Translations under genes and position numbers: made by a program
Notes under the pieces: model-generated
What the model saw: the letters and a program-made list of their open reading frames with translations, nothing else
The model's database searches: none
Told to the model about the DNA's origin: nothing
From: Deltaproteobacteria bacterium
GTDB taxonomy: Bacteria > Myxococcota_A > Polyangia > GCA-2747355
Length of the DNA stretch: 34,702 bases
Direction: 5' to 3'
Assembly (NCBI GenBank): GCA_019314525.1
Contig: JAFCZD010000027.1
Coordinates: 1-34,702 of the forward strand
In this document: positions 9,440 to 30,905 of the stretch, piece by piece
Layout: the number at the start of each line of letters is the position of its first letter
Numbering within the stretch: position 1 is the first letter of the stretch

Positions 9440-9504
9440 GTCTCACCTATCGTCGGCCCGCACACCTCCTTGCTGTGAGGCACGCCTGCTCGTACTCTTA
9501 CGCG

Positions 9505-11961
9505 ATGCGCAGCTGCTCCATTGTTCTCGTTCTCTCCTTCCTCGCTGGCTCACCCACCGCGCAGGCTAGCAAGATCATCCTGAAGCAGGGCAGCATCACC
9601 GTCCGTGATGACGCGACAGTTCACGTCGGTGGAAAACGCCTCAGCAGCATCGCGCTGCCGCCTCCCCCACGGAGGATTGAGGTCCTAAAGCCCCGCATCA
9701 AGGGGAAGAGGCTCCTGTGGATCCGGATCCATGGGGCAGAGGGGCGTGGGAGCGAGCTACTCTACGCTGGAGAGACTCTGCTCTTTACTGGTAGCACAGG
9801 CCCTCAGGGGGTAGATGGCGAGTGGAGTCGGCATCTTCAGGTCAACGCCAGCGGCGTCCTGCTCTACCAGCAGCGGCCAGGTGTCACACGCTGCGGCCAC
9901 AGGACGGATGTTCTCTTTCCTCAACGTTATGACTTCACCGCGAAACGCTTCCGTCACGTGTTCCCCCCCAGGGCCGCAGGAAAAGTTAAAGAGCTCCAAG
10001 CGACACGAATGAAGGGACCGTTGCACGAAGAGCCCCTCAACACCTTCTTCGTCAGCGCAGCATCGAGCCACCGCGGCGACGGCCGGGAGGCGGCAAACCT
10101 CGCGCCTGCCGTGGAGGCTGTGGATGGGCGCTTGGAGACAGCCTGGAGCTTGGCTGGTGCATCGTCTCGCGGAGCTTTTCTCACCCTGCGCCGCCCCCCT
10201 TCACCCTACCCCCTCGTTGCCATAGCGCTCGTCCCAGGGGACGCAGGAAGCGAACAACGCTTCCGCGCTGCCGGCCGCGTCAAGACCCTCCTCCTAGAGT
10301 TCGACGGCGGACTGCGCTATCGCTTGCGTATTCCGCAAGACCCAGCCCGCTCGGCCGACGGCTTCCGGGGCCCCTTCCGCGCAAATTTGCCCAAACCCTA
10401 CACGGGCCAATGCCTCTCCATCACGGTGGAGGAGCACTATCCTGGCCGTGAAAAACATACCCTTGCGCTAGCAGAGTTCCGACCCATCACAACCCTTTCC
10501 ATGGATAGCGGGGCGCTCACGCGCCTCGTGAAAGATCTCCAGCACGAAGACTCCACCCGAAGCGCGGTGGCCACGCGCATCCTCATTCGTCAGGGAGCAC
10601 GAGGTGTCCCAGCGCTAGCGTCAGCCGCCAAGAATGCAGCACCCAGAGCCCGGGAAAAGATCATCGAAACCTTGGCGCGTTTGCGTTCACCTGAAGCGGC
10701 ACGAGTGATCTTCGCCCACGTCCCCCACCTTTCCGTCCGGCTCCGTAAGCGCATAGCGCCGACCCTGCTCGCCCTCGGCGCCAACGCCCTGCCCCTCATC
10801 AAACCCCTCACGCTGCACAAGCGGGCACCCCTCCGTCACTACGGGTTTCGCCTCCTGGGCATGCTGGGCAACAAGGAGGCCCATGGCTTGCTCCTTGACC
10901 GTGTGGGGATCGGCTCACCACAGGAGCGGAAAGCCGTGGTTCAGGCTCTTGGTCTCCGAGGCAGCGCTCGACTGACCTCAGCGCTACTCCTCGCGCTCAC
11001 CAAGGCCACCCAGCCCGCGCAAAGGGCAGACCTCGTGCTGCTCCTGGGCCGCCACACACACACTGCTACACAAAAAACGGTGGTGGACGCGCTGCTCGCG
11101 CTCTGGCCCACCACCAGCGACTTCGAAGTCCACATCCGCCTCATCTCAGCGCTCTCCCGCCTTGACGCGAAAAGGGCAAAAACCCTCCTTCTGAAGGAAC
11201 TCGAGAGCAAGGATCCGATCCTGCGCTGGCGTGCTCTTTACGCCCTGCGGCGCATCCCTGCGGCTCTCAGCCAAGCAAAAGCCTCGGAGCTTCTTGCTGA
11301 CGCCGATCCACGTGTGCGCGAGGAGGCGAGCATGGCGTTGCGAGTCCATCGCCAAGGGAAGGTCACCGCCGCGCTCACTCAGCGCCTCCTCAACGACCGG
11401 TGGCCCCAGGTGGCGCGCAAGGCGGCTATCGCCCTCTCTGGACGCTGCGAAAAACTCACCCTCACCCGCATGAGGCAGGCCGTACGAAAGCGTGGCTTTG
11501 GCATTGACGCCCTCGCCCTACGCAACATCGTCGCCTGCCAGCCCAAGTGGTTGCTGATCTATCTGCTACGGGTTGCTGCCGAGCCCCGCCAACCCACCTC
11601 CCTCCGCCGCCTCGCCGTGGACGTGGTACCCGCCGACCTGCTCAAACGCCACCTGCGACACATCAAGAGGTTCTTCCTCAATATTCGCCGTGAAGCCCTC
11701 ACCAGCAGCGCCGCTGAGAAGGTCACCGCGACCCTCGCTGAGAGCATGGGCCGCTCTCGTCACCTGAAAATGGCGCCCTTATTGGCCGACGCCTTGGCCC
11801 TCGATCCGAGCCCGCTCATCCGTGCTTCTGCCGCCCGCGCCTTGGGGTATCTCTGTGACGCCAAAGTCGCACGTCCCCCCTTGCAACGGGCGGTGAAGGA
11901 CCCTTCCCCGCTCGTCGCAGGAGCGGCCCAGGCGACCCTTGCGAAGTGTGGGGCAAACTAA
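9505..11961 (+). CDS. Secreted protein with F5/8-like domain and HEAT repeats
   Basis: I do not recognise a named family, but the architecture is clear. Counting from the ATG at 9505, residues 1-21 form a Sec signal peptide ending in AQA before a Ser. A beta-rich region follows to about 175. Residues about 185-328 look like the discoidin-type (F5/8 C, NADase-associated glycan-binding) fold, with SAASSHRGDG, AVDGRLETAW and a closing SITVEEHYPG segment. From about 340 to the end (818 residues) there are alpha-helical HEAT/PBS-type repeats such as LRWRALYALRRIP, DPRVREEASMALRV and PLIRASAARALGYL. The product should act in the periplasm or outside, possibly binding carbohydrate and scaffolding proteins. 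A GTG at 9475 is an alternative start giving a poorer signal peptide. It lies 65 bp after the ALDH gene, and its stop overlaps the convergent PEGA gene stop. Confidence 0.85.
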   Translation: MRSCSIVLVLSFLAGSPTAQASKIILKQGSITVRDDATVHVGGKRLSSIALPPPPRRIEVLKPRIKGKRLLWIRIHGAEGRGSELLYAGETLLFTGSTGPQGVDGEWSRHLQVNASGVLLYQQRPGVTRCGHRTDVLFPQRYDFTAKRFRHVFPPRAAGKVKELQATRMKGPLHEEPLNTFFVSAASSHRGDGREAANLAPAVEAVDGRLETAWSLAGASSRGAFLTLRRPPSPYPLVAIALVPGDAGSEQRFRAAGRVKTLLLEFDGGLRYRLRIPQDPARSADGFRGPFRANLPKPYTGQCLSITVEEHYPGREKHTLALAEFRPITTLSMDSGALTRLVKDLQHEDSTRSAVATRILIRQGARGVPALASAAKNAAPRAREKIIETLARLRSPEAARVIFAHVPHLSVRLRKRIAPTLLALGANALPLIKPLTLHKRAPLRHYGFRLLGMLGNKEAHGLLLDRVGIGSPQERKAVVQALGLRGSARLTSALLLALTKATQPAQRADLVLLLGRHTHTATQKTVVDALLALWPTTSDFEVHIRLISALSRLDAKRAKTLLLKELESKDPILRWRALYALRRIPAALSQAKASELLADADPRVREEASMALRVHRQGKVTAALTQRLLNDRWPQVARKAAIALSGRCEKLTLTRMRQAVRKRGFGIDALALRNIVACQPKWLLIYLLRVAAEPRQPTSLRRLAVDVVPADLLKRHLRHIKRFFLNIRREALTSSAAEKVTATLAESMGRSRHLKMAPLLADALALDPSPLIRASAARALGYLCDAKVARPPLQRAVKDPSPLVAGAAQATLAKCGAN

Positions 11962-12668
11962 CGAATCGTAAACGAGTGGTCCGCCCCAAAGTCACTCACG
12001 GGATCACCACTCGCGACCGCCACGGGGATGGCGACGGCCAACGCTACGGCGATGGCGCCACCAGCGACGCCTGCCCAGACATACCACTTTTCGTACCACC
12101 TCGGCGGTGGGGGTGGCGCGGGCCGGTAAGGCGTTGTGCCCACAGCCATCGCCTTGAGCGTCGCCTTTAGCCTCAACTTCGCTCCAGGCAGCGCCTTCTG
12201 TGTTGCGATGAAATCGTGGTAGCCAGCCTTCTGCACGCGGATGGAGTGTTTGCCCTCCTGCACCTCGGTGGTCAGCGGCGCCAACCCCACAAAGCGTCCA
12301 TCCACATAGACTCGTGCTTCAGGGACACTCGCTGTCACCGCCAACACCCCTGCCACCGGCAAGAGGTCAATGTCGACCTTCGCTGCTTTACGACGCTTGA
12401 TCAGGATTACATCGATATAGGGCGTGTAGCCGGTCTTTGCCACCTTGAGGGTGTGACGTCCTACCTTGAGCCGCAGTGGCTTTTCGAGGGGAATCGCCCC
12501 CATCTCCCGGCCATCGACATAGACCTTGGCTCCCGTGGTGCCGGAGTTCACATGCAAGGTCCCAAAGGCCCTTCTGCGGCGGCGCTTTGCCTCCACAGGT
12601 CTGACGTCAAGAGCATTCAGAAGGAACACCCCGGCGAACACCAACACAAAAAGCCTCATGGCCTGCAT
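11958..12668 (-). CDS. PEGA-domain protein with signal sequence and C-terminal membrane helix
   Basis: The 236-residue product begins with a signal sequence or anchor (residues about 4-26, ending VEA before a KRRRRR run). Two PEGA modules follow, at about 36-100 and 105-170. Both show the GAKVYVDGREMG / EARVYVDGRFVG pattern, then the P-L turn, a GRH/GKH segment and KTGY / KAGY. A Pro-rich linker (PAPPPPPP) leads to a hydrophobic helix near 192-216 (WAGVAGGAIAVALAVAIPVA). PEGA domains are small beta modules found in surface or periplasmic proteins and often appear in many copies in Myxococcota; no enzymatic role is implied. The start at 12668 is an ATG with GAGG very close; the ATG at 12659 is equally possible. 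It lies 55 bp after the giant TPR gene on the same strand and may be cotranscribed with it. Confidence 0.88.
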   Translation of the reverse strand: MQAMRLFVLVFAGVFLLNALDVRPVEAKRRRRRAFGTLHVNSGTTGAKVYVDGREMGAIPLEKPLRLKVGRHTLKVAKTGYTPYIDVILIKRRKAAKVDIDLLPVAGVLAVTASVPEARVYVDGRFVGLAPLTTEVQEGKHSIRVQKAGYHDFIATQKALPGAKLRLKATLKAMAVGTTPYRPAPPPPPRWYEKWYVWAGVAGGAIAVALAVAIPVAVASGDPVSDFGADHSFTIR

Positions 12669-12723: not shown

Positions 12724-15700
12724 TCAATCCAGCGCCTCCAGTGCGTCTTTCAAGACTTGATTTCCAGGCTCGATTTCGAGCCCTCGTTCGAGCATGCTGC
12801 GAGCCTTCGCCAGCTCTCCTAAGGCTGTGTGAATTCGTCCAAGCTGACCGAAAATCTCGGCCTTCGTAATTTCCCAGTCGGATTTTGGATTCTGGAGGAG
12901 CATCGAACGATAGATACGGCGCGCAGCCTGCCAATCCTGCAGCGCGACGTAGACTCGCCCCAACCCTCCGAGAGTCGCACCAGCACTGCTGTCCATCCGG
13001 TAGGCCTTATCGTAACGCTCACGCGCTTGTTCCAGATCTCTCCGGCGCTCCGAAACCAACCCTAGGAGCTGGTGATAACGGGCGACATCCTTATTGCGTC
13101 TGTTCCCAGCATCCTCTACCAGAGACGCCAGCAGAGGCTCGGCGTCCTCCAAGCGTTCAGCGCGACAATAGGCCTCGGCCAGAGGCACGAGCACATCGAC
13201 GCTCTCTGGCTCAAGCTCTCGGGCGAGTTCAAGGGCTCGGACGGCGTCCTCGGGACGCCCCAAATGACCCTGATAGATTTGCGATAGCTCCTGCAAGAGC
13301 GCGACACGTTCAGCGCCCTCTACATGCTCCACACGAGCCTCGTTGTGTACAGCAAGCTCTCCCCATGCCTCTTCGTCCTTGAGAAAGGCGCCCAACGCCT
13401 CACCCGCCTCGTGGTGGTTCGGAGCGAGTTCACAAGCCTTGAAGTAGAGCGCCTTGACCTCCTGCGCGTCACCACCTTGCTCCCTCAACACCCGCGCGTG
13501 CCGGAAAGCCAACTCGGCCCGCTCCTCTGGTCTCGGATCCAAACTCTCAGCTTTCCGCAACACCTCCGCACATCGGTCCCACTGCGCCGTGGCCTCATAA
13601 ATGCGCGCCAACTCCGCGAGCGCCCTGACATTGGCCTCATCCTGCTGGAGAATCTCCTCGAGCACCTCAGCTGCTGCCTCTGGGTTCTCGAGTTCATCGG
13701 TCCAAAGACGCGCGACCACAGCCAACTCTGTTGTTGCAGCACGAATTTCGCCCGCTGCCACCAAGGCCTGGGCCCATGCCCTCTTCAGCTCGATCAAGTC
13801 ATACCACTGCGCCTCATCTCGCAAGAGAGAGGAGAGGCGCTGATACGCTTCATCGTGTTGCGCCGCATCCTCCAGCACACGCCGCAGATACTGTGTGGCC
13901 TGCGACAAGTTACCCAACTCCACCTGGTTCAACTCTGCGAGCTGCAAGAGCAGCTTATGGCTCTCTTCCCCCGTGATGATGTCGAGCCTCCGAAGCAGCA
14001 CCTCCTCCAGGCTCCGATAATCTTCTCGCCTACGGTGCAGCTCCTCGAGGACCGTCAGCGCCTCCTGATCTCGTGGGTTGGAATCTAGAATTTCCCCATA
14101 GATGTTGATCGCCGCCACTTCATCATCGAGTTCGACTCGCGCCAAGATCGCCAAACGGTGCCGCAGAGATGAGCGCTCTGCTTCGTCCAACTGAACCTCG
14201 ATCAAGCGCTCGAGCACATGCGAGAGTTCCTCCCACGCCTCCTCCACGCTGTGTAATCGCACGAGCTCGCCCAGGGCTTCGGTGTCACTCTCATCCAACT
14301 CCAACACAAGCCGCCAAACGTCTGTCGCTGCCCTATTGTCCTCTAGCACCTCCTCGCGTAGGCGCGCCAAATCCACCAAACGTTGGCGCTTCTTGCCTGC
14401 GTCCTGTTCCAGATCAGCGCGAGTATAGAGGACGTTCGAAAGTTCGCGGTGCTTCTCAGATCGGCGATAAATCCCATCCAATCCGTCGAGGGCCGCCATA
14501 CAATCAGGTGCTTGCTGAAGGACCATCCGGTAGCTGCGCTCAGCATCATCGAGCCGCTCAAGGCGCTGGTCGTACCAAGACGCCACACGCAACCCTAAGT
14601 CGCGCAGGCCATCTCCACCCGACTGCTCACCTCCCAACACAACTTCCATCCGGCGTACAACGTCCTCAAAACGACCCAGCTTCTCCGCGACCTCCTCCAA
14701 GGCGTCCAACAAGCTTGCATTGGACGGGTCCTCAGCGACGGCACGTGCGTAGCTCTGCAGCGCTCCCTCCGGCTGATCAAGCTGCTTCAACTGAATCGAC
14801 GCCATGCGTTCGAGCAACGTCACTCGTTCAAGGAAGTCGCCCACAGTATCGAGGCGAACCTCCAAAAGGCTCACCACCTTCTGAAAATCTCCCCCCTCCT
14901 CATAGAGGGGTTCGAGCACGTCCAGCACGCTCACGCGATGCATCTCAGAGCCAAGCAACTTTTCGAAAGCAACTCGTGCGCCCTCATGTCCTGGCGCCCG
15001 ATGTAATGCGTCGCGGAAAGCAGAAAATGCGCCGTCGAGATCTTTGAGGGTCTCACGCTGAATCTCCCCCGTACGGAAGTAGAGTTCAGCCTGCAAGGCT
15101 GGGTCATTCTCCAGCTGAATCCGCCGCTCGAGGACCTCCAGGAGATCTTCGCCCTTGTTCAGGCGCATCAAGACTCGGTCAAGATCAGCCAAGACCACGG
15201 GGTCTTCACCACCCACGTCCATCGCAGCCCGTAGGTGGCGTTCTGCCATTTCTGCATCGGAGAGGTTGGACTCGGCCAACTCGGCGATGCGGCGGTGCAA
15301 GTCCTTGGCAACAGCCGAGTCGTAGATCTCGTCGACTTGCCCTGCATATACCTCCACCAGCCGCTCCTGCAGCCCCAACTCATCCCCAAGTCGATCCATC
15401 TCTTGTCGCGTCTTGCTGTCCCCTGGAACCTCACAGAAAGCACGACATTGGACATCGAAGGCACGAGAGGGGTCAGAGAGCGACTCTTCGAGCAGCCGCG
15501 CCATCTCCATCAGGACCTCCCACCGCTCTTCTGCGGCCTCCACCGTCTCGAGCCGGACCTCCATGACACGCACCCTGGCGTCAACATCCTCGACGCTCGC
15601 ATAGAGGCGCTCCAAGATTCCAGCAACCCGAGGCTTGGTCGCCTCATCGAGGAGCAAGGCCTCGAGTGCTTCCCGCGCCGCGGCGTGGTTGGAGTCGGCT

Positions 15701-18700
15701 AATACGACCGCCTGGAAGTGATCTACCGCGCGATCCGCCTCGCCGAGTTCATGCGCGAGGATCGCCCCACTCCTGAAACGCAGCCCGTTGAGCGGGTCGC
15801 CGTCCTGGGCCAACTGCGTCTTGCTCTCGACCACGTCGAGCAATTCAACCCAAAGGGACTCCCGGGTATAGAGCCGGTCGAGTGAATCCAGAGCATCTCC
15901 GTCGGAAGGGAATCGCTCAAGGAAGGTCTTCAGAGCGCCAATGGCTTCGAAGTTATCCTCGACTTTCTCTTCGTAAATCGCTGCTACCCGAGCCTGCAAC
16001 CTCTGCCACATCTCCGGATCGTCGGTGAGTTCCAATTTTCGCTGGCAGACCCACACCAGGTCAGCCCAGTTTTCCTGTTCGAAATAGAGCTCATCCAGCG
16101 CGTCCAACGCTCTCCCGCTCTGTGGGTCAAGGTCCAGGACACGTCGCCACGCGGCGATAGACTCCTCTGCGTTGGGGAGCTGCTCACGATGGATCTCTGC
16201 AATTCGCTGATAAGCGCGCTGCTGCTCCAAGCGATCGGCAACCAAATCGGCCTTGCGATGTAGAGTCTCCACCAGCTCTGCGTAGCGCCCGAGGATCTCC
16301 AAGAGTTCCACAAGGGCGCTCATGGCGCGCTCATCCCCTGGCAAGATGCTCAACACACGCCGCCAGGCGTCCACGGCCGCGCCTCGGCTCTTTAATTTGT
16401 CTTCCAGTAGCTGGGCCTGCCGGGTCAGCAGACGCCCCTGCTGGTCGTCGTCGTAACTCTCATTGACACAGCGGTCTAGCACCTCGACGAGACGCTCCCA
16501 CCCTTGAACCTCTCCAGCGAGGCGCTCTACCTCCCGGGACAGCTCCCCATCGTTGGGATCCTGCTCGAAAGCCTGGCAGAGCGCGCTGAACGCCAACTCG
16601 AGGCTTCCTCCTCGTTCTTCGTGCAGGCGCGCAATCTCGCGCAGGAGATAAATCCGCCGGTCCTTGTCTTCGATGAACGCCAACTGGGCGTCATAGATAA
16701 CCACCAGCTTCGCCCACTCATCCTGGGCTTGATAAATCGGCTCTAGAACCTCCGCGATGCGGAAGCGTTGGTCGCGGTCCAGGACCAACTGTTCGAGCGC
16801 TCCAATGGCGCCGGCGTGGGCTGGCTCGCGGCTCAAGACCTCTTCGTAGTGATCGATGGCGATGGAATAATCGCCAAGCCTACGTTCGTAAACGCGTCCC
16901 AATTCGAATTTCATCTCAAGCAGCTCGTCGGCGTCATCCACCAAATCCATCCGACGGTTGTAGTGAGCGCAGAGGTCCTCCCAACGCTCTGCTTCGCGAA
17001 AGAGGCGGTCCAACGCGCTCGCCGCGGCCAGATCACTCTCTTCGTCGAAGATCGCCTGATAGGCGTCGATGGCGCGAGGCACATCCTCCAACGCCTCTTC
17101 CCAGACGCGGGCGATCTTGAACATCAGGTCGCGTCGCAGCGACGCATCCAATGTCTGGTCCACGCTCCGCTGGTAGACCCCCAAGAGGTCGTCCCAGCGC
17201 TCATGACGCATCAAGAGCTGCTCGAGCAGCCTGAACGCATCTTCATCACCTGGGTCATGATCGAGCACCCTCTCGAAGGCCTCTTTCGCCGGCTCCCAAG
17301 CGTAGAGCCGATCGTCCCAGATTTTCCCCAGATGAAGCGCCACCTCACGACTGGTGTCATCTTCGTTCATCACCTGGTCAAGATAAGTACTGTATACTTT
17401 CGCCAGCGTTTCCCACGCGTCCAGGACGCCCGCCAGGCGGGTGATCTGGTCGCGGATGGTGGAATCCGAGGGCTCCTCTAAGAAGACCTTGCTATACCAG
17501 GCGAGCGCCTCCTCCAGGTCCTCCAACTGCTCCTCGTAAAGCTGCGCTACCCGCCTCATCAGCGCCAGGCTTTCGTCACTCTCGTCAGCTGCTTCAAGCC
17601 TGACCTTGTAGATAGCGATCAGCTTGGGCCACACCTGACGAGCGGTGTAGATCGGCTCGAGGACACGCGCCGCCTCCGAGGACAGTGCATCATCTTCTAG
17701 ATAACGTTCGAGGGCCTCCACGGCCACTTGATGTCCGCTCTCCAGCTCGATCAAGCGCCGATAGTCCTCCAACGCGCCAGCAGGATCCTCCAGTCGGTCC
17801 TCTCTGACCTTCGCTGCACGCTCGATGAAAGCTAGCTCGTCCGCGAGTTCCTCCGCCAACTCAGCCCGCCGTAGCAAGAGGTCTGCCAACTCCGCCCAGC
17901 GACCAAGATCACCATAGAGCCGATCCAAACCCTCAAGCACATCACGCCGGTCCGGATCGAGGGACAACACACGCTCATAAAGCGAGACAGCGTCCTCATC
18001 GCGTTGCAGGTGCTCGTGGCAGAGAACTGCCGCCTTCACCAGCAGGGTCGCGACCTCATCATCCCCCACCAGTTCGGCACGAGAGAGCACGATCTCATAG
18101 AGGGGCTCCCACTCATCTCGGGACTCGAGGATGCGCTCGAGAGCACGCAGCGCGTCCTCACTGGTGGCATCCAGGTCTAGCAACTGACGATAATGCAGCT
18201 CTGCGCGACGCACATCGTCAAGCTGCTCTTCACTAATTCTGGCCGCAGTGGTGTGTACTCGCGCTCGAAGCTCTCCTGAGCAAACATCGCCGATGATGCG
18301 CTCCAGCGTCTCGACAAAGGTGGGCCACGCCTGGGTGGCCGCTGCGAGATCCTGCAGTGTATCGAGCAGCTGGGACGTCTGTCCCGTCTCACCCTCCACC
18401 ACAGCTGCAATCAATGCCTCCCGTGTCGCCTCAAAAGCCGACTCTGGGGCATCGAGTTCCCCTTCATAGATTTCGGCGATCGCTCGCAGGGCCGCCACTC
18501 GCTCACTGCCCTGCCCCTGGGCCGCCTGCAGCTGCCGCACCCGGATCCACTCTTCCCATTGCCCTGCCTCTGCGAAGAGCGGCGCAAGGATTTCAGCGGC
18601 GATCCCTCCATAGTCATCATTGTCGAGGAGCGCCTCCAGCGCCTGGCGTGCCCCCTCATGGTCTCGCTTCTGCGCGAGCACCTCGCGGTAATTCTCCACC

Positions 18701-21700
18701 GCCCCAGGGACATCCCCGAGCTCCTTCTCAAGCAACTCTCCGAGCTGAAAACCCAACTCGAGGGCATCTGGAGCGTCACCTGCCAGCTCGCGACGCGTCT
18801 GGAGCACCTCGTAGAGTTCGCTGTAGCGTCCCGCCTCTGCATAAATGCGACTCAGAGTTCGCAGGCTCTGCTCGTCATCTGGGTCCTCTCCAAGCAAAGA
18901 CAGATAGGCGGCGATGGTCTCCTCACCCTCTTCCAGCTCGACTTCATAGATCTCGGCGACACGACGCCACAACTCACGGCGGTCTTCAGCTGAGGGCGCA
19001 AGTTCAATGCGACGCTGCAGGATTTCGCTCAATTCCCGCCACCGTTCCGCGGCGAGGAAGAGGCGTTCTAGAGCGTCCAACGCCACTTGGGTGCCACCCT
19101 CATCGAGAAGCTGCTGGTAGGTTTCCACTGCTGCGTTAGGATCCCCAAGCGCGCCTTCCTGCACCTGAGCCACCCGTTCCAGCAAGCCCTGTCGCTGGTC
19201 CACGTCTTCACGCCACTCTGCAACCATCAGCATGGCATTGACCAGGTTGGCCCACTCTTGGTTCATCTCGTAGAGGCGCATCAACGCGTCTGCAGCAGCA
19301 AACCTCTCGCTGGCATCCTTGGGGTCGAGTTCGAGAAACTCCCGGTAGCTCTCGATGGCCCCGTCGACGCTGCCGATGTGGGTATCGCGCACCTGAGCCA
19401 ACTCCCAAAGCAGCTTGCCCCGTACGTGCAGGTCCTCAGCGCCTAGGGCTGCGAGGGCAGCTTCCCAGGCCTCGGCCCCGGCCTCCCAAAGCTCCAACTC
19501 GGCCATGAGACGCACAACGGCCTCCCGCAACTCAGCGTTCGCTGGATCTAGGCGTAGCGCGTCACGGTAGCGAAAAAAGGCAGCCTGAGGATCTTCGAGC
19601 CTCTCTTCGAATATGCGCGCAATGTGCGACAGCAAGTTGACCTGCTCAACGTGTCCTTCGGTAATATCTCGGCGGATCAGCAGGATGGTCACCAGATCTA
19701 TCCAACGCTCGGTTCGCTCGTAGAGCGCTTCGAGGATCTCGGTGAGGCGCAGACGCTCCGTGTCTTCCGTAACCAGCAACTCGAGCAGGTCCACCGCTTC
19801 AGGGTGACTGGGGTCCTCTGCAACCACTTCCTCGAGCAGGGAGACCGCCCGAGAAACCTGGGTCAACTCCCTGGCGTGAACCTCGGATTGCTTCACTTTT
19901 ATGTCGTTGATGACCGCGGGGTCCTCCACAAACGAGATCTGGGTGTGGTAAAAATCCGTAAGTTGTGTCCAAAGTTCGGCCTCCCGGTAGAGCCGCTCGA
20001 GCGCGTTGTTGGCGTCAGCGTGGTAGGGGCTGAGCTTGAGAATCTCCTCATAGATGCCAACGGTGGCCAGCTCATCACCAATCACATCTTCATTGAGGGC
20101 ACAGATCTGTTCGAGGATCTTGACCTCCTCGTCGAGCCCACTCACCAGCTCTCTACGTCGGTGGAGGACCTCACGCAGCTCGATCCAACGCCCCTTGTCA
20201 CGCAAGACACGCTCGAGCAGCTCAAAGGCCTCTTGATGTTTCGGATCCAACTGGACGATGCGCCGTGCGTGTTCTTCAGCGTCATCAGCTCGACCCAGCT
20301 CTTGGTCGAGCACGCGGGTGAGGAGCCAACGCAGATCCAACTCTAGCGCCTGCTCATCTCCGATCTCCGCCAAGACGGCCTCGAGGGTCACCGCCAACTC
20401 GTCATACCGCCCACTGGCCTCAACGACACGCACCAGGTCGCGACGCCCCTGGGGGTCTGAAGGGTCCATACGAAAGAGCCGCTCCGCCATAGTGAGAGCT
20501 AACTTCTCCGAGTCCAGCCGTCGCTCATAGAGCACCAAGAGCCGCTTCAGGATGATGCGCTGCTGCTCCGCGTCGGTCTCAGCGGCGAGCATCACCTCCA
20601 GGCTATTGGCCAAGCGACGAAAATCGTCTGATCGTTCGTAAAGCGGCTCGAGGATTCGGGCCACGCGTACCTGCTGCGCCCCTTCAGACGCCAATTGCTC
20701 CTCAAGAGCCAGGGCTGTAGGACGATGGTTGGGGTCCAGCTCAAGCCCACGAGCCAACGCGTCAATAGCCGCCTCACTGTTCCCCAACTCTTCTTGTTCC
20801 AACTCACCAATGCTGTAGTAAATTTCTACCTTCGCCTCATCGTCTTCCACCCGCTGCAGCTGCTGCTGCAAGACATCGCAGAGTCGATGCCACTCGCCAC
20901 GCACGTGGTAGAGTCGCTCCAAGGCACGGAGCGCCTTGAGGTTGCCCGGCGCCTCGTCCACGATAGTCGTATAGGTCCGAATGGCCGCCACTGGGTCGGC
21001 GAGGCGCTCTTCCTGGACGAAGGCCATCTTGAAGAGGCGCTCAACAATGGCGTCAGCGCCTTGGGCGATGGCCGCCTGGCGCTGGTAGATTTTGATGAGT
21101 TCTTCCCAGCGTTGGCCCTGCACATAGATCTGTTCCAGCGCGTTCAAGGGTGCGGTGGCTCCATCGTCGAGCTCTAGAAGGAGAGCGTGAAAGCGTTCAG
21201 CCTCCTCGGGGCGATGCAACTCCTCCTCGCAAATGCGGGCCATCTCACGCAGGAGAACCTGCTTGTCGTCGCCCGCCTCCACAGCCTCCACGCGGCGGAT
21301 ATACGCCTCGAGGAGCTCGTCGTAGGCGTCCGCCTCTTGGGCCAATCGCCGCAATTCGGTGTTTATGGTCTCATCTTCTGGGGCGATGACGTACGCCCTC
21401 ACGCACCACTGGAAAGCGAGCTGCTTTGAATTGAGACGCTCTTCACAGAGCTGTCGAATCTCTTCGAGCAACCGCAGCCGCCCCTGATCGTCTTCTGCCT
21501 GAGCCAGCAGCGTCTCGTAGGCGCTGAGGAGTCGGCTCCAACGTTCTGTCTCCCGGTAGAGGTCCACCAGCGCATGGCACACTTCGGCGTTCTTTCCGTC
21601 CACAGCGAGCACGCGCTCGTAGGCTTTGATCGCCCGCTCGCTGTTGTCCAACTCCCCACCAAAGATCTGGCCGACTCGTTGATAGAGACGAGCTTTGGTC

Positions 21701-22998
21701 TGTGGATCTTCCGTTCGGTCCGCGGCGGCTGTGAGCGTCTCCGCCAGCCCCCCCCATTGATCGCGCGCCCCAAAGAGGCTCTCGAGGTCTTCCCAACGGC
21801 CCTGTTGCACGTAAAGCGCGCGCAAGAGGGTCACAGCCTTGGGGTGATCCGGACGCAAGACCAACACTTGTTGCCAAACTTCTACAGCGATCTGTGGCCC
21901 GCGTAAGCGGTTGGTGTAGATATCACCCAAGGTCTCCAGCAACTCAAGGGCGTCATCCTCGGTCTCTGCCCGCTCATGCTGTCGATGAAGAATCTCGGCC
22001 AACGCAGCCCAGCGCTCCTCCTTGCGGTACAACTCGCTCAGTGCAGTAAACGCGCCTGCGTGCTCTGGTTCCTTCTCCAGCACCTCGTTCCAGATCTCGA
22101 TGGACTCCGCGGCGTCATTCAGCCGTTCACTGGCCACCCACGCGGCCTGTTCGAGGGCCGCCTCCCAGGCCTCCCCCTCGCAATGCCGTGCCTCCCGTTT
22201 CAGCAAATCGATCAGGCGGCGCCAATTTCGCCTCCGGGTGTGAATATCTTTGAGCAGGGTGAGCGCACGCTCATCTCGCCCGTCGTTCTGCAGCACCTGC
22301 TCCAAAGGCTCGATGGCTTTGGTGTGATTCCCAAAACGGTCAATCCAAAGCCCCGCAATTTTATGCAGGATCTGCTGTCGAGCAGCGGGATCGTTAGAGT
22401 GCTGCTGCCTCCGCTGAAGAACAGCGATGAGATCACTCCAGCGCCCCATCTCTTCATAACACTCGCTCAACGCCTCGAGGGCTGGCTCATAGTCTGGTTT
22501 AAGAGCCAAAATCGCGCCATAGGTGTTCACCACCATCATTGGCAACTTGAGGTGTTCACCGTAGATCTGAACAATCTGTCGGTAGAGAGCGATCTTTTCG
22601 TCCGTTGCGCTGTCTTCGAGGTCCTCAATCTCCTCTTTCAGCAGTTCGCGCAGGGCATTCCACTTGGGCGGGCTGGCGTCGCGGTAGAGACGCTTGAGCT
22701 GCGAAAAAGCCTCCTGACGGGCCGTCGGAAGGCGCACGATCCCCTTCCAAATGTCGATGGCCTTGTCGACATTCCTGAGGTCCTCTTCGGCCACTTGCGC
22801 CATCTCACGAGCGAGAGAAAGGCGCAATTCCTCGTCTTCTGCGAGGCGTTGCGCCGTATCCAAGAGGCCAATGAGCTTCGCTGGCTGCTCCTTCGCCCGA
22901 TAATAGCGGCGGTAGAAGCCAAGCATGGCGGCCGACTCCGGCGCGCTCTTGCGCACACGCCGGAAAAACTCCTCAGCCTTGTCTGGCTCGTCGCTCGT
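12724..22998 (-). CDS. Giant TPR-repeat protein, main part (downstream of frameshift)
   Basis: This long open frame encodes about 3,420 residues of repeated alpha-helical units. The unit is about 72 residues, two TPR-like hairpins, with a recurring Trp near its start and the pattern W..L...(Y/L)..R / L......(I/L)Y.....(D/E)...AI..Y..VL...P....A...L..LY. Counting by this period gives close to 48 units here. It is very acidic, lacks membrane helices, and should be a cytoplasmic superhelical scaffold. The reading frame continues the 322-residue upstream piece once a 7-bp tandem duplication at 22986-22999 is removed: LDE then joins directly to PDKAEEFF. The frame stays open upstream to a TTG at 23214, but that part is the out-of-frame reading of the N-terminal piece and not real protein. 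If translated separately, an internal start such as the ATG at MLGFYRRYY would be needed. Partners are unknown; the PEGA gene follows. Confidence 0.85.
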   Translation of the reverse strand, partial: TSDEPDKAEEFFRRVRKSAPESAAMLGFYRRYYRAKEQPAKLIGLLDTAQRLAEDEELRLSLAREMAQVAEEDLRNVDKAIDIWKGIVRLPTARQEAFSQLKRLYRDASPPKWNALRELLKEEIEDLEDSATDEKIALYRQIVQIYGEHLKLPMMVVNTYGAILALKPDYEPALEALSECYEEMGRWSDLIAVLQRRQQHSNDPAARQQILHKIAGLWIDRFGNHTKAIEPLEQVLQNDGRDERALTLLKDIHTRRRNWRRLIDLLKREARHCEGEAWEAALEQAAWVASERLNDAAESIEIWNEVLEKEPEHAGAFTALSELYRKEERWAALAEILHRQHERAETEDDALELLETLGDIYTNRLRGPQIAVEVWQQVLVLRPDHPKAVTLLRALYVQQGRWEDLESLFGARDQWGGLAETLTAAADRTEDPQTKARLYQRVGQIFGGELDNSERAIKAYERVLAVDGKNAEVCHALVDLYRETERWSRLLSAYETLLAQAEDDQGRLRLLEEIRQLCEERLNSKQLAFQWCVRAYVIAPEDETINTELRRLAQEADAYDELLEAYIRRVEAVEAGDDKQVLLREMARICEEELHRPEEAERFHALLLELDDGATAPLNALEQIYVQGQRWEELIKIYQRQAAIAQGADAIVERLFKMAFVQEERLADPVAAIRTYTTIVDEAPGNLKALRALERLYHVRGEWHRLCDVLQQQLQRVEDDEAKVEIYYSIGELEQEELGNSEAAIDALARGLELDPNHRPTALALEEQLASEGAQQVRVARILEPLYERSDDFRRLANSLEVMLAAETDAEQQRIILKRLLVLYERRLDSEKLALTMAERLFRMDPSDPQGRRDLVRVVEASGRYDELAVTLEAVLAEIGDEQALELDLRWLLTRVLDQELGRADDAEEHARRIVQLDPKHQEAFELLERVLRDKGRWIELREVLHRRRELVSGLDEEVKILEQICALNEDVIGDELATVGIYEEILKLSPYHADANNALERLYREAELWTQLTDFYHTQISFVEDPAVINDIKVKQSEVHARELTQVSRAVSLLEEVVAEDPSHPEAVDLLELLVTEDTERLRLTEILEALYERTERWIDLVTILLIRRDITEGHVEQVNLLSHIARIFEERLEDPQAAFFRYRDALRLDPANAELREAVVRLMAELELWEAGAEAWEAALAALGAEDLHVRGKLLWELAQVRDTHIGSVDGAIESYREFLELDPKDASERFAAADALMRLYEMNQEWANLVNAMLMVAEWREDVDQRQGLLERVAQVQEGALGDPNAAVETYQQLLDEGGTQVALDALERLFLAAERWRELSEILQRRIELAPSAEDRRELWRRVAEIYEVELEEGEETIAAYLSLLGEDPDDEQSLRTLSRIYAEAGRYSELYEVLQTRRELAGDAPDALELGFQLGELLEKELGDVPGAVENYREVLAQKRDHEGARQALEALLDNDDYGGIAAEILAPLFAEAGQWEEWIRVRQLQAAQGQGSERVAALRAIAEIYEGELDAPESAFEATREALIAAVVEGETGQTSQLLDTLQDLAAATQAWPTFVETLERIIGDVCSGELRARVHTTAARISEEQLDDVRRAELHYRQLLDLDATSEDALRALERILESRDEWEPLYEIVLSRAELVGDDEVATLLVKAAVLCHEHLQRDEDAVSLYERVLSLDPDRRDVLEGLDRLYGDLGRWAELADLLLRRAELAEELADELAFIERAAKVREDRLEDPAGALEDYRRLIELESGHQVAVEALERYLEDDALSSEAARVLEPIYTARQVWPKLIAIYKVRLEAADESDESLALMRRVAQLYEEQLEDLEEALAWYSKVFLEEPSDSTIRDQITRLAGVLDAWETLAKVYSTYLDQVMNEDDTSREVALHLGKIWDDRLYAWEPAKEAFERVLDHDPGDEDAFRLLEQLLMRHERWDDLLGVYQRSVDQTLDASLRRDLMFKIARVWEEALEDVPRAIDAYQAIFDEESDLAAASALDRLFREAERWEDLCAHYNRRMDLVDDADELLEMKFELGRVYERRLGDYSIAIDHYEEVLSREPAHAGAIGALEQLVLDRDQRFRIAEVLEPIYQAQDEWAKLVVIYDAQLAFIEDKDRRIYLLREIARLHEERGGSLELAFSALCQAFEQDPNDGELSREVERLAGEVQGWERLVEVLDRCVNESYDDDQQGRLLTRQAQLLEDKLKSRGAAVDAWRRVLSILPGDERAMSALVELLEILGRYAELVETLHRKADLVADRLEQQRAYQRIAEIHREQLPNAEESIAAWRRVLDLDPQSGRALDALDELYFEQENWADLVWVCQRKLELTDDPEMWQRLQARVAAIYEEKVEDNFEAIGALKTFLERFPSDGDALDSLDRLYTRESLWVELLDVVESKTQLAQDGDPLNGLRFRSGAILAHELGEADRAVDHFQAVVLADSNHAAAREALEALLLDEATKPRVAGILERLYASVEDVDARVRVMEVRLETVEAAEERWEVLMEMARLLEESLSDPSRAFDVQCRAFCEVPGDSKTRQEMDRLGDELGLQERLVEVYAGQVDEIYDSAVAKDLHRRIAELAESNLSDAEMAERHLRAAMDVGGEDPVVLADLDRVLMRLNKGEDLLEVLERRIQLENDPALQAELYFRTGEIQRETLKDLDGAFSAFRDALHRAPGHEGARVAFEKLLGSEMHRVSVLDVLEPLYEEGGDFQKVVSLLEVRLDTVGDFLERVTLLERMASIQLKQLDQPEGALQSYARAVAEDPSNASLLDALEEVAEKLGRFEDVVRRMEVVLGGEQSGGDGLRDLGLRVASWYDQRLERLDDAERSYRMVLQQAPDCMAALDGLDGIYRRSEKHRELSNVLYTRADLEQDAGKKRQRLVDLARLREEVLEDNRAATDVWRLVLELDESDTEALGELVRLHSVEEAWEELSHVLERLIEVQLDEAERSSLRHRLAILARVELDDEVAAINIYGEILDSNPRDQEALTVLEELHRRREDYRSLEEVLLRRLDIITGEESHKLLLQLAELNQVELGNLSQATQYLRRVLEDAAQHDEAYQRLSSLLRDEAQWYDLIELKRAWAQALVAAGEIRAATTELAVVARLWTDELENPEAAAEVLEEILQQDEANVRALAELARIYEATAQWDRCAEVLRKAESLDPRPEERAELAFRHARVLREQGGDAQEVKALYFKACELAPNHHEAGEALGAFLKDEEAWGELAVHNEARVEHVEGAERVALLQELSQIYQGHLGRPEDAVRALELARELEPESVDVLVPLAEAYCRAERLEDAEPLLASLVEDAGNRRNKDVARYHQLLGLVSERRRDLEQARERYDKAYRMDSSAGATLGGLGRVYVALQDWQAARRIYRSMLLQNPKSDWEITKAEIFGQLGRIHTALGELAKARSMLERGLEIEPGNQVLKDALEALD

Positions 22999-23941
22999 CG
23001 AGCTCGTTAGCGTAGAGCCCTCCCACTCGTACCAGCATCTCCACGGCAATCTCAGCTGGAAGCGTGGACCGCACCTCCTCAGCCAAAACGCTCGCCAAGC
23101 CGACAAAGTTCTGCGTGTCTTCGTAGATTGCGGACAATGTCTGCTGGGCGCGCGCCGAGCGGGGGTTGGCCGCGAACGCTGCCTCGTAACACTCAAGGGC
23201 GCGCGCCATGTCAATCTTCACGTCCTGCAAGGGAAGCACGCCCGCCCAGAGGTAGAGGTCGCCCAAGTCAAGCATGGCGGCGGCGTGGAGGGCAGGTCTA
23301 GTGCTCACCTCCGCTCGCTGGTGGATCGCTCCAGCGAGTTCTTCCACGCGCCCTTTGGCCAGAAGCCAGCGCTCGAGATGAGCGCTTGCTTTTTGGTTCC
23401 TGGCGTCGATCTCGAGGCTACGCCTCAGGCACTCCTCGACGCGCTCCGAGTCTGGGTTGTTGCGCCAGGTGACCTCGGCCGCTGAAAGGAACATCCTCGT
23501 GGCGAGCCCACGATCTGTGGCAGCCTCAGCCTCATTGATGAACTTCTCGGCGATGCGCTGCCAGTTCTCACGCACAATACCAATATGTTCAACGAGGTCT
23601 TCGATTTCCTCATCATCTGGCCGCAAATCGAGCGCTTGCTGCAGAGCCTTCACCGCGCCCTCGTCGTCAAGAAGCTCATCCTTGAGCACCTGCCCCTTGA
23701 GCAGCAATAGGTCAGCCCGCCCGTCACCGTCTATGTGCACCAGCTCGGCATCGATCAAACGAACCACCGCGTCCCAGCGACCATAAGAACGGAGCTCTTC
23801 ACGCGCCCTTTCGAGCAGCTGACGATCTTCGTCGCTAAGGCCCGAACGCTGGGCGATCAGCTCGCCCACCGACGCCATGAGGTGCGCGTCATGGGGGCGA
23901 ATCTTCAGCGCGTTAAGCTGCTGCTGTATGCTGGTGCTCAT
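22973..23941 (-). CDS. Giant TPR-repeat protein, N-terminal piece (ends at frameshift)
   Basis: This is the 5' part of the giant TPR gene. The ATG at 23941 opens a helical protein with no signal peptide. Residues about 1-315 already show TPR-type units (for example GAVKALQQALDLRPDD and ALECYEAAFAANPRSARA). The frame ends artificially at 322 residues, after LDERRARQG, because GACGAGC is repeated in tandem. With one copy removed the frame runs on without interruption to 12724, giving a protein of about 3,736 residues. Upstream lies a 318-bp gap divergent from an ABC exporter operon. Whether the break is biological, a slippage event or a sequencing error cannot be told from one sequence. Confidence 0.8.
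   Translation of the reverse strand: MSTSIQQQLNALKIRPHDAHLMASVGELIAQRSGLSDEDRQLLERAREELRSYGRWDAVVRLIDAELVHIDGDGRADLLLLKGQVLKDELLDDEGAVKALQQALDLRPDDEEIEDLVEHIGIVRENWQRIAEKFINEAEAATDRGLATRMFLSAAEVTWRNNPDSERVEECLRRSLEIDARNQKASAHLERWLLAKGRVEELAGAIHQRAEVSTRPALHAAAMLDLGDLYLWAGVLPLQDVKIDMARALECYEAAFAANPRSARAQQTLSAIYEDTQNFVGLASVLAEEVRSTLPAEIAVEMLVRVGGLYANELDERRARQG
22986..23000. repeat. 7-bp tandem duplication breaking the giant TPR gene
   Basis: On the plus strand GCTCGTC occurs at 22986-22992 and again at 22993-22999, with the period continuing one more base. On the coding strand this is GACGAGC twice. Removing one copy restores a continuous TPR reading frame. Confidence 0.9.
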
Positions 23942-24259: not shown

Positions 24260-26065
24260 ATGAAAATCTCTTCTCAAAACTCCCCTCTCCCTCCACAGAG
24301 CAACCCGCTGCGCTTCCTTGCACGTTACCGCGGTCAATTGGCCCTTGGCATCCTCTGCTTGCTGGTGACGAGCAGCCTCGGACAAACCATCCCCTATTTG
24401 ATCAAGCACGCAGTGGATGTCATCGAAGGGCACTTGACAACAGGTCGCGCTGGGAGCGCCCACCAGCAGACTTCCCTTTGGATATTCCCAGCTCTCGTTG
24501 CCCTCTTTGCCTTGGGCCAAGCTGCCATGCGTATCTTCTCTCGAGTGTTGATCTTCAACGCAGGACGCCAGGGCGAGTACCACTTGCGTGGCATGCTCTT
24601 TGCGCACCTCTGTCGCCTCGACGCTGCCTTCTACCGGAGCTTTCACACCGGCGAAATCATGTCCCGACTCACGAACGATCTTGCAGCTGTGCGGGCACTC
24701 TTTGGTGCGGGTGTGCTCTACACCACCAACACAGTCTTCGCCTACGCGGTGGCTCTCCCCCTCATGCTGAGCATCGACCCCTCTCTCTCCCTTCTGGCCC
24801 TCACTCCCTACCCCATCTTGCTGCTCGGAGCTCGAGCCTTCGCGCGTGGCATCTACCAACGCAGCCGGCAACAACAAGAAGCCCTCGCCCACATGACCTC
24901 GACGTTGCAGGAAGACCTCGCGGGCATCCGCGAGCTAAAGAGCTATCGCCTCGAGCCCATTCGCGCCGAGGCTTTCCGTCGGGAGTCTCAGGGCTATCTG
25001 CGCCATGCCCTACGCTTGGCGATGTGGCGTAGCGGCATGCTCCCCTTTGTAGGGGCTGGGACAGGAGCCAGCCTGGTCATCCTGCTTTGGGTGGGGGGGA
25101 ACCGCGTCATCGAGGGGTCTCTGGGCTTGGGCGATCTTGTCGCCTTGAACCTCTACGTGACCCTGCTGGCCTGGCCGACCATGGCCATCGGCTGGATGAT
25201 TTCGGTCTGGCAACGGGGCACCGCTGCGTGGCACCGGCTCCAATCCATCTTGGAGGCTCGTGCCGAACTTGAGGATGATCCCGCGGCTCACGGCCCCAGC
25301 ATGGGCTCGAGCGGGGTCCAACTGCGCCTTGAAGGTCTCACCCTGGAGGTCGGTGGACGAAAGGTCCTCAATAACATCAACCTTGGGGTCCGAGCCGGCG
25401 AAATCCTGGGGGTCGTGGGGCGCGTTGGGAGCGGAAAGACGCTCTTGATCGAGGCGGTAGCACGTCTACTGGACGTTCCCCCTGGTGTGCTCTATGTCGG
25501 CGGAGAGGACGCCACCACCCTCTCTCTCAGCGCCACGCGGCGAAAAATCGCCTACTCGCCCCAAGACCCCTTCCTTTTTTCTGCGACCATCAGAGAAAAT
25601 ATCCTCTACGGCCTCGACGAGACACCCCCCTCTCTCGAAGCCTCCCTTGAGGAAGTGGTTCGGGCAGCTGGACTCGAAACAGATATCGCGCACTTTCCGG
25701 CGGGCCTCGACACCATGGTGGGCGAACACGGGGTCACGCTCTCGGGAGGCCAACGGCAACGCGTCGCCCTGGCCCGTGCATTGGTCAGCCAGCGCCCTGT
25801 GCTCTTGCTCGATGATTCCCTCTCGGCCGTGGACACAGAAACAGAACGAGAGATCCTTCGCTGTCTGCGGCAGGTCTTGAACGAAAGAACCGTGCTCCTG
25901 GTCTCACACCGCATTTCTGCGCTTCGGCACACCGATCAGATCGTTGTATTGGAGAACGGCAGCGTCGCCGAACGTGGCACCCATGACCAGCTAATCGCAG
26001 CAGAGGGCATCTACTCGCTCCTCTACCAAGAGCAGCTCCTCGAGACACCCGAGGAGAGCCCATGA
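24260..26065 (+). CDS. ABC exporter half-transporter with degenerate Walker B (subunit 1 of heterodimer)
   Basis: This is a type IV (MsbA/MdlA-like) ABC exporter half with six membrane helices (residues about 25-315) followed by a nucleotide-binding domain. The domain has Walker A GRVGSGKT at 387-394, the Q loop YSPQDPF near 432-438, signature LSGGQ at 494-498, Walker B VLLLDD at 514-519 and H-loop His550. The catalytic Glu after Walker B is Asp519. In heterodimeric exporters such as the TM287/288 pair this marks the non-hydrolytic site. It overlaps the next gene by four bases (ATGA), so the two subunits are coupled. The substrate (lipid, drug or peptide) cannot be told. The ATG at 24260 has no clear ribosome binding site, yet the N-terminus is sensible. 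Confidence 0.93.
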   Translation: MKISSQNSPLPPQSNPLRFLARYRGQLALGILCLLVTSSLGQTIPYLIKHAVDVIEGHLTTGRAGSAHQQTSLWIFPALVALFALGQAAMRIFSRVLIFNAGRQGEYHLRGMLFAHLCRLDAAFYRSFHTGEIMSRLTNDLAAVRALFGAGVLYTTNTVFAYAVALPLMLSIDPSLSLLALTPYPILLLGARAFARGIYQRSRQQQEALAHMTSTLQEDLAGIRELKSYRLEPIRAEAFRRESQGYLRHALRLAMWRSGMLPFVGAGTGASLVILLWVGGNRVIEGSLGLGDLVALNLYVTLLAWPTMAIGWMISVWQRGTAAWHRLQSILEARAELEDDPAAHGPSMGSSGVQLRLEGLTLEVGGRKVLNNINLGVRAGEILGVVGRVGSGKTLLIEAVARLLDVPPGVLYVGGEDATTLSLSATRRKIAYSPQDPFLFSATIRENILYGLDETPPSLEASLEEVVRAAGLETDIAHFPAGLDTMVGEHGVTLSGGQRQRVALARALVSQRPVLLLDDSLSAVDTETEREILRCLRQVLNERTVLLVSHRISALRHTDQIVVLENGSVAERGTHDQLIAAEGIYSLLYQEQLLETPEESP

Positions 26066-27810
26066 AGGATAAGCGAAAACCGTCTGCTCGGGTCGACCTG
26101 CACCTCGCGCTGCGCTTGTGGACCTATCTGCGCCCCCATTGGCGCCCGCTCCTCTTGGCGCTGCTGCTCCTCCCCGTGGGTGCTGCGCTGCAGCTCGCCC
26201 CACCCTATTTGCTCAAACGTGTGATCGACGATGCGATCCTTCCCCGCCAAGCGGAGGCCCTCGCGCCCTTGATGGCCGTCTTGATCATGGTGCTCATCGC
26301 TGAATACACGGCCATCTTCTTCCAGTCTCTTGCGGTGCAAATCTGTGGGCAACGTGCCCTCCACGATCTGCGCCAAGCAGCCCACCAGCACCTGCTTCAG
26401 CTCAGGCTATCCTATTTCGACACGACCCCCATCGGGCGCACCGTAACGCGCCTAACAAACGACGCAGAGAGCATCGCCGAGGCCTTCGCAGGTGGGCTGG
26501 TGGCCCTCTTGGGGGATGTGCTCAAGCTGGTGGGAATCATCGCCATCCTCCCGCTGCTGAGTTGGAAGCTCACCCTCGTCGTCTTCACGCTGGCGCCACC
26601 GCTGCTGCTGGTGGCGATCTTCTTTCAGCGTCGCCTACGGGCGGCATTCCGCGCCATCCGGCGCCACCTGGCGAGCATTAACGCGACCCTCCAGGAACAG
26701 ATCAGCGGCGTGAAGGTGATCCAGATGTTCGGACGCGAAGCGCGCGCGGAGCGGGAGCTCGACCTCCACAATCGCGCCTATCGCGACGCCTACCGCTCAG
26801 CCATCCGTCATGACGCGACCCTCTTCGCCCTCGTGGAGTTCATCGCCAGCCTAGCGATGGCCCTGCTGCTCTGGTATGGCGGCATCCGCGTGTTTGTTGG
26901 CGCCATCTCCTTTGGTTTGCTCGTGGCGTTCGTCGAATACGTGCAACGCTTCTTTCAACCCGTGCGTGACCTCTCCGCGAAGGTGGCGATCATCCAGCAG
27001 GCCTTCGCCGCCGCAGAGCGCGTCTTTGAGCTGATGGACACCAACGCCCCTGACTGCCCCGTAGCCGAAAACGCAAGCGCAGAGGAGGCACACACAGACG
27101 AATCCCAGATCTCCCTAAGAGATGTGTTCTTCGCGTACCCTGACAAGCCGCCGCTCTTCGAATCCCTCTCACTGCAGATCGCCAAGGGCGAAACTGTCGC
27201 CGTCGTGGGACCCACCGGTTCGGGGAAGAGTTCGCTGCTCAAACTGCTAACGCGGCTCTACGAGCCACAAAGTGGACAGATTCTACTCAGTGGCCGCGAC
27301 ATCCGCCTGATCCCTTGCCATGAGCTTCGCAGACGCGTTGTGGTGCTCAATCAAGAGGTCTTCTTATTTCCTGGGACCGTCCTCGACAACATCATCCTTG
27401 GCGATGAGTGCGTGACCGAAGACCAGGCGCGCGACGCCGCTAAGCGTATTGGGCTTCTGGCTCGCTTTGATATCCAACGCGAGGTCGGTGAGCGTGGCCA
27501 GAACCTCAGCGCGGGTGAGCGACAGCTCGTGGTCTTCGCCCGAGCCCTGGCTCGCGATCCCGAGGTGCTGGTGCTCGACGAGGCCACCGCTAACGTTGAT
27601 CCCGAGGCGGAACGGCTGATCCAACAAGGAACCGCGGCGCTGCTGGCAGAACGCACCGCGATCATCGTCGCCCATCGCTTCTCCACAGTGGAGCAAGCGG
27701 ACCGCGTCATCGTGATGCACCATGGCAGGGTGGTGGAGGACGGTCGCCATGCGCAGCTCATCGCCGCGCAAGGGCTTTATGCCAGGCTGCACCGTTTGCA
27801 GTACATCTAA
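26062..27810 (+). CDS. ABC exporter half-transporter with canonical Walker B (subunit 2 of heterodimer)
   Basis: This is the partner of the preceding gene, 582 residues, with six membrane helices (residues about 28-310) and a nucleotide-binding domain. It has Walker A GPTGSGKS at 383-390, the Q loop VVLNQEVFLFPGTV, Walker B VLVLDE with catalytic Glu507, and H-loop His538. Its signature motif is LSAGE at 482-486 instead of LSGGQ. In an ABC dimer this signature packs against the Walker A/B of the partner, so the altered motif and the Asp519 of subunit 1 fall in the same degenerate site. The consensus site would pair this Walker B with the intact LSGGQ of subunit 1. The IGRTVTRLTND coupling-helix region and FGREARAERE are typical of MdlB/MsbA-like exporters. 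The ATGA overlap sets the start. Confidence 0.94.
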   Translation: MKDKRKPSARVDLHLALRLWTYLRPHWRPLLLALLLLPVGAALQLAPPYLLKRVIDDAILPRQAEALAPLMAVLIMVLIAEYTAIFFQSLAVQICGQRALHDLRQAAHQHLLQLRLSYFDTTPIGRTVTRLTNDAESIAEAFAGGLVALLGDVLKLVGIIAILPLLSWKLTLVVFTLAPPLLLVAIFFQRRLRAAFRAIRRHLASINATLQEQISGVKVIQMFGREARAERELDLHNRAYRDAYRSAIRHDATLFALVEFIASLAMALLLWYGGIRVFVGAISFGLLVAFVEYVQRFFQPVRDLSAKVAIIQQAFAAAERVFELMDTNAPDCPVAENASAEEAHTDESQISLRDVFFAYPDKPPLFESLSLQIAKGETVAVVGPTGSGKSSLLKLLTRLYEPQSGQILLSGRDIRLIPCHELRRRVVVLNQEVFLFPGTVLDNIILGDECVTEDQARDAAKRIGLLARFDIQREVGERGQNLSAGERQLVVFARALARDPEVLVLDEATANVDPEAERLIQQGTAALLAERTAIIVAHRFSTVEQADRVIVMHHGRVVEDGRHAQLIAAQGLYARLHRLQYI

Positions 27811-30566: not shown

Positions 30567-30905
30567 ATGAAGACCCTTGCCGAAAAACGCCGTTTTCCCC
30601 GCGCCCCCCTCCCCTACCGCCTGGAAATCGGGCGGGGAAGCCACCACGAGACCGCACGAATCGCGGATATCAGCGAGCGCGGTGTTCGTTTGTGCAATGC
30701 GCCCGACCTGCCCTTTGACCAGGACGTCGAGATGACGATCCCCCTGCGCCGCCAGGATGGCAAGAACGCAACGTGTCGAGTGGTGGGACAGGTGGTTCGT
30801 CGCGACGACAAGAGCGTCGGCGTACATTTCCTGCCGCTGCTACCAGCAGACATGCTCCGACTTCGCGATTTTGTGTGGCGCAATAGCGCTGCTGAAGTTT
30901 GGTAG
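30567..30905 (+). CDS. PilZ-domain protein, likely c-di-GMP receptor
   Basis: The 112-residue product is a stand-alone PilZ domain. It has both signature motifs for cyclic-di-GMP binding: RxxxR (R8 RFP R12) at the N-terminus and DxSxxG (DISERG, residues 34-39). A beta-barrel follows, with a late VVRRDDKSVGVHFLPL strand, then a short C-terminal helix. Single-domain PilZ proteins act as cytoplasmic adaptors that change motility, surface or export functions when c-di-GMP is bound. A GAGGAG sequence lies about seven bases before the ATG and fixes the start. It follows feoAB by 79 bp on the same strand and faces the radical SAM gene. The target is not evident from the neighbourhood. Confidence 0.9.
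   Translation: MKTLAEKRRFPRAPLPYRLEIGRGSHHETARIADISERGVRLCNAPDLPFDQDVEMTIPLRRQDGKNATCRVVGQVVRRDDKSVGVHFLPLLPADMLRLRDFVWRNSAAEVW

Follow-up and report, generated by a model that had tools for sequence, protein, structure and literature searches.

The giant tetratricopeptide repeat (TPR) locus described here is best explained as one conserved gene for a probable TPR scaffold, carrying a 7-bp lesion that is found in this draft only, as an artefact or a recent mutation and not as a switch (probability about 0.8). The window, i.e. the whole stretch of 34,702 nt that was analysed, is one entire contig of a 7.57-Mb draft with 1,038 contigs and 83.7% completeness. On its minus strand, positions 22986-22999 form an exact tandem pair of the heptamer GACGAGC. 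This pair is the frame-breaking lesion: Because of it, an 11.2-kb frame is divided into a part of 322 residues and a 10.3-kb frame. The pair lies where the original prediction had placed it, and an exact search found it once in the window. The features at the break are:

22973-23941, minus strand: N-terminal part (322 aa) of the giant TPR gene, with homology to the orthologues over residues 1 to ~316
12724-22999, minus strand: C-terminal piece of the giant TPR gene, a TPR solenoid of ~3,420 aa
22924-22926, minus strand: first ATG that follows the break in the downstream frame, preceded by GGAG at a distance of 9 nt; a potential restart site, provided that the break is real

The two frames had been described correctly as 22973-23941 and 12724-23214. 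The upstream frame starts at 23941, which matches the N-terminal consensus of the orthologues, and its last few residues are out of frame. The downstream open frame comprises 3,496 codons, with TPR sequence and homology from residue ~76; it extends to 23214, and the stretch upstream of the junction is non-homologous. Exact 7-bp tandem pairs as such are not rare (five in the window versus 2.2 expected from shuffled sequence), but the position of this pair at the frame change is not due to chance. Homology locates the frame change to ~15-20 bp, and the GACGAGC pair sits exactly there. When one heptamer copy is counted, the orthologue spacing L-D-E-x-x-K/R-A-E-E-F is restored and a protein of ~3,736 residues is predicted. 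Another small indel as the actual break, with a coincidental heptamer, is disfavoured because the single-copy count restores the orthologous spacing exactly. Both this spacing and the orthologues support the proposal of a single gene shifted out of frame by the duplication.

In all 20 relatives for which the gene was fetched in full, it is uninterrupted and encodes 3,731-3,943 residues in one frame. The two window pieces abut on the orthologous frame in these 20 relatives: In G002, piece 1 ends at 384 and piece 2 begins at 383. Of the 20 frames first picked, 18 were matched by the two pieces over their full length in BLAST; after frame correction for the other two, the alignment of all 20 has 3,734 well-occupied columns. 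At the heptamer site, none of the 20 orthologues has an indel, and the heptamer repeat is absent from all orthologue DNA sequences displayed for comparison. Two separate genes, named beforehand as the result that would overturn the idea, were not found, and this arrangement is rejected because the relatives carry one frame. A programmed ribosomal frameshift, or two genes acting as a pair, has next to no probability: Only the overlap of the two frames speaks for it, whereas in the relatives a single frame continues across this point, and the duplication lies where the frame shifts.

A wider search among named genomes yielded a similar picture. A scan with a single protein gave no hit, and an alignment-based scan returned 80 loci, of which 78 are orthologous. 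Nearly all belong to records named Myxococcota, Myxococcales or uncultured 'Deltaproteobacteria', among them Nannocystineae, Sandaracinaceae, Kofleriaceae and Polyangiaceae; from these record names we infer the class 'Polyangia' for the family. The site is open in 77 of these 78 further loci, and 54 of the 57 complete copies consist of a single frame. The three broken ones break at sites other than the heptamer position, namely near reference residues 326, 400-410 and 1830-1850 (L159), at residues 992-1065 with the loss of about one unit's length (L160) and near residues 946-966 (L176). Among the loci examined, the frame is broken in ~5% of the complete draft copies of this 11-kb gene, and the positions are scattered; the window copy adds another case. 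As the frame of nearly all orthologues continues across the site and the broken copies are interrupted at other positions, the break is private to this draft and the locus, judged by sequence comparison, is one gene. Apart from the frame break, the window copy fits the giant TPR family of Polyangia-type Myxococcota, which is defined in this analysis (one frame of ~3,700-4,000 aa, full-length co-linear homology). A homologue in a 5-contig genome (G133:C1, L215) contains numerous frameshifts, suggesting a long-read assembly that was left uncorrected; as evidence, this broken copy from a poor draft is uninformative.

The downstream piece shows no signs of decay. Its identity to G002 is 53% compared to 46% for the upstream piece, and its 3,420 codons are open without extra stops. 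Neither relaxed constraint nor further lesions, as expected for an established pseudogene, were detected downstream of the break. As the same degree of constraint acts on both pieces, the break should be new or not real.

The most likely cause of the 7-bp duplication is an assembly or consensus error. Spurious frameshifts arising from low coverage have been documented (PMC11017572), and the same draft contains other lesions. The first of them lies on the same contig:

348-391, plus strand (recJ is encoded on the minus strand): exact 22-bp tandem duplication at the recJ 3' end, the second frame-breaking duplication of this contig

The final recJ codons are thrown out of frame by this pair. The frame as assembled reads RPAARATERDGYC, and the alternative frame past the pair, read by eye, gives QRRVQLNVTDIVGAG, a plausible RecJ C-terminus. 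Furthermore, an exact 41-bp tandem pair breaks a urocanase-like gene (G000:C870; L112 10198-10281), which by eye appears to be hutU. A TPR paralogue (G000:C314; L235 3576-8368) is broken near L235:6140-6170 without any tandem repeat. Another candidate, G000:C735 as a TPR gene cut by one stop, was rejected and is an ordinary pair of adjacent genes. Lesions and repeats were counted in a 556-kb sample of this genome (L055-L114 plus the window). Exact two-copy pairs with a unit of at least 14 bp and a length that is not a multiple of 3 occur seven times in these 556 kb and not at all in 783 kb of relatives, and this surplus is suggestive of assembly error. Tandem arrays with units of at least 14 bp number 46 in the 556 kb versus 11 in the 783 kb of relatives. 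The excess consists mostly of 15- and 18-bp units, i.e. multiples of 3, and many of these arrays are in-frame and multi-copy. Because in-frame arrays are enriched, too, the genome itself is possibly slippage-prone. A codon-usage screen for frame-breaking duplications gave a rate not clearly different from that of the relatives. It is unlikely that the lineage is unusually prone to short exact tandem duplications and that the pairs in the giant TPR gene, hutU and recJ are real and reversible lesions. If it were, frame-breaking pairs would keep the population heterogeneous.

A recent mutation that duplicated the 7 bp in tandem within the sampled population is possible, and is ranked second to an assembly or consensus error. 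In this case, cells would make the 322-residue N-terminal fragment and perhaps, by a restart at 22924-22926, a C-terminal protein of 3,400 residues. The exact duplication and the undamaged downstream frame would be compatible with such an event, as would an ATG with a GGAG-type site after the stop, and real slippage is plausible in a genome rich in tandem repeats. However, the hutU and recJ-tail breaks in the same draft exceed the expectation for a healthy genome. The Met encoded at 22924-22926 is ordinary in the orthologues; since it is the common residue at that position, the ATG is no evidence of a start. Whether error or mutation, the case calls for caution: In a draft sequence, a single short and exact duplication made two genes out of a conserved one of 11 kb.

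The original prediction had also considered a phase-variable ON/OFF switch through slippage at the heptamer. This part did not withstand the comparison, and such a switch is very improbable. In its favour, 7 is not divisible by 3, the lesion could in principle revert, and localised hypermutation is known to arise through tandem duplications (PMC4235727). The Haemophilus influenzae genes hmw1A and hmw2A have phase-variable heptanucleotide tracts, i.e. the same 7-bp unit as in the window, in their promoter (PMC4235727). In contrast to these tracts, the window has two copies within a conserved coding region and no repeat in the relatives examined. Contingency loci have many copies and a copy number that varies; here, only two copies are present, and copy number was constant among the relatives compared, none of which is a same-species strain. 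The lack of any indel in the orthologues, the open site in nearly all named loci and the position of the other breaks elsewhere argue against a switch as well. In addition, the site occurs once in the assembly and no second state is present there, the housekeeping genes hutU and recJ bear the same kind of lesion, and the TPR paralogue of the same draft is broken without any repeat. Finally, the giant TPR gene is class-wide and syntenic, and its product, predicted to be cytoplasmic, belongs neither to the surface nor to the modification genes.

The split is most likely not biology, and the family is more interesting than the break. The giant protein is predicted to be an acidic, all-helical TPR alpha-solenoid composed of 72-residue double TPR (four-helix) units. 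The identity autocorrelation peaks at 72 and then at 144 residues, so that the 72-residue unit proposed originally is real. About 52 four-helix units, or ~100 TPR-like helix pairs, are arranged in one chain of ~3,736 residues. Pfam yielded TPR_19 with 100.7 bits (cut-off 25) and TPR_7 with 85.5 bits (cut-off 27.9), which identifies TPR sequence. Part of the protein was modelled with AlphaFold2:

20239-22953, minus strand: 905 residues modelled as an all-helical superhelix

The model, calculated from these 905 window residues and 39 relatives, has 50 helices, ~four per 72 residues. Its mean pLDDT is 90.3; pTM is 0.45, and the long-range curvature is uncertain. No signal peptide, membrane or hydrophobic segment was detected (best 19-residue mean 1.3), and the net charge of the C-terminal piece is near -306. 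The protein is probably cytoplasmic, as far as its sequence indicates. In the alignment of the 20 orthologues, conservation is highest at residues ~300-600 and in the final 130.

Helix-turn-helix repeats throughout the chain are a property shared with TPR alpha-solenoids (Pfam TPR clan; CTPR superhelices, PDB 8bu0 and 9qhb). A PDB profile search returned designed consensus TPR proteins as best and significant matches. Compared to the solved TPR chains that were matched, the window protein is far longer, with ~100 helix pairs and a double unit of 72 residues. Foldseek revealed local fold matches to the eukaryotic proteins Ski3, the TPR subunits of IFT-A and Ctr9, which are long TPR superhelices that hold multi-protein complexes; the global TM score is at most 0.26 and no sequence kinship is evident, so the likeness is one of fold type only. 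Among bacterial proteins in NCBIfam, PrsT, LapB, MamA and GltE gave weak TPR matches. They are much shorter than the window protein, and the equivalog cut-offs were not reached (GltE 26.5 versus 225, PrsT 87.5 versus 312.2, LapB 51.4 versus 474; MamA far below its curated cut-off). GltE, going by its family name, is presumably a lipoprotein, unlike the window protein. None of the libraries searched assigns a function to the giant TPR family, the literature search on giant TPR proteins of this group found nothing relevant, and the plasmid collection contained no match. Fold, acidity, constant length and the absence of membrane or catalytic parts suggest that the protein is probably a scaffold. 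As a very long, rod-like scaffold, it would present a concave groove in each unit, and the chain of units could hold several partners at set distances.

The giant TPR family appears to be class-wide and, by sequence, nearly fixed in length across Polyangia-type Myxococcota, a large group of bacteria from soil and water that resemble myxobacteria. A profile match with E<=1e-25 was obtained in 156 of 284 sampled genomes of the phylum (113 of the 193 of high quality), and matching genomes typically carry several giant frames of 3,500-4,200 residues. The original prediction had called a protein of this size without signal peptide unusual. It is indeed large and lacks a signal peptide or membrane segment, but it is not unusual for its lineage, because homologues are present in each of the 39 genomes from the first search for relatives, and this genome contains seven or more further TPR frames longer than 1,400 residues. 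These paralogues comprise a TPR frame of 3,952 residues and others of 1,400-2,700 residues. The former (G000:C840; L056 2-11857) is possibly a member of a second widespread group of paralogues; in some proteins of that group (L201, L213), the N-terminal region is rich in Pro and Ala. That a repeat protein of ~52 units keeps a near-constant length and register across a whole class matters more than the split. This constancy implies that the overall length is under selection, as it would be in a molecular ruler or a scaffold.

The neighbourhood of the giant gene is shared, too. Its flanking genes are:

11958-12668, minus strand: PEGA-domain protein with an N-terminal hydrophobic stretch, the next gene downstream on the same strand
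9475-11961, plus strand: HEAT-repeat protein, convergent, with a homologue downstream in seven genomes
24260-27810, plus strand: two ABC exporter subunits, divergent and upstream of the giant gene, with homologues in the corresponding position in several families

The row queA-tgt-yajC-secD-secF-recJ with the convergent HEAT-repeat gene is found downstream in several families. Such a shared neighbourhood would be expected of a core gene that is inherited vertically. Elsewhere in the window, a gene for a PilZ-domain protein (30567-30905, plus strand) is located beside feoB.
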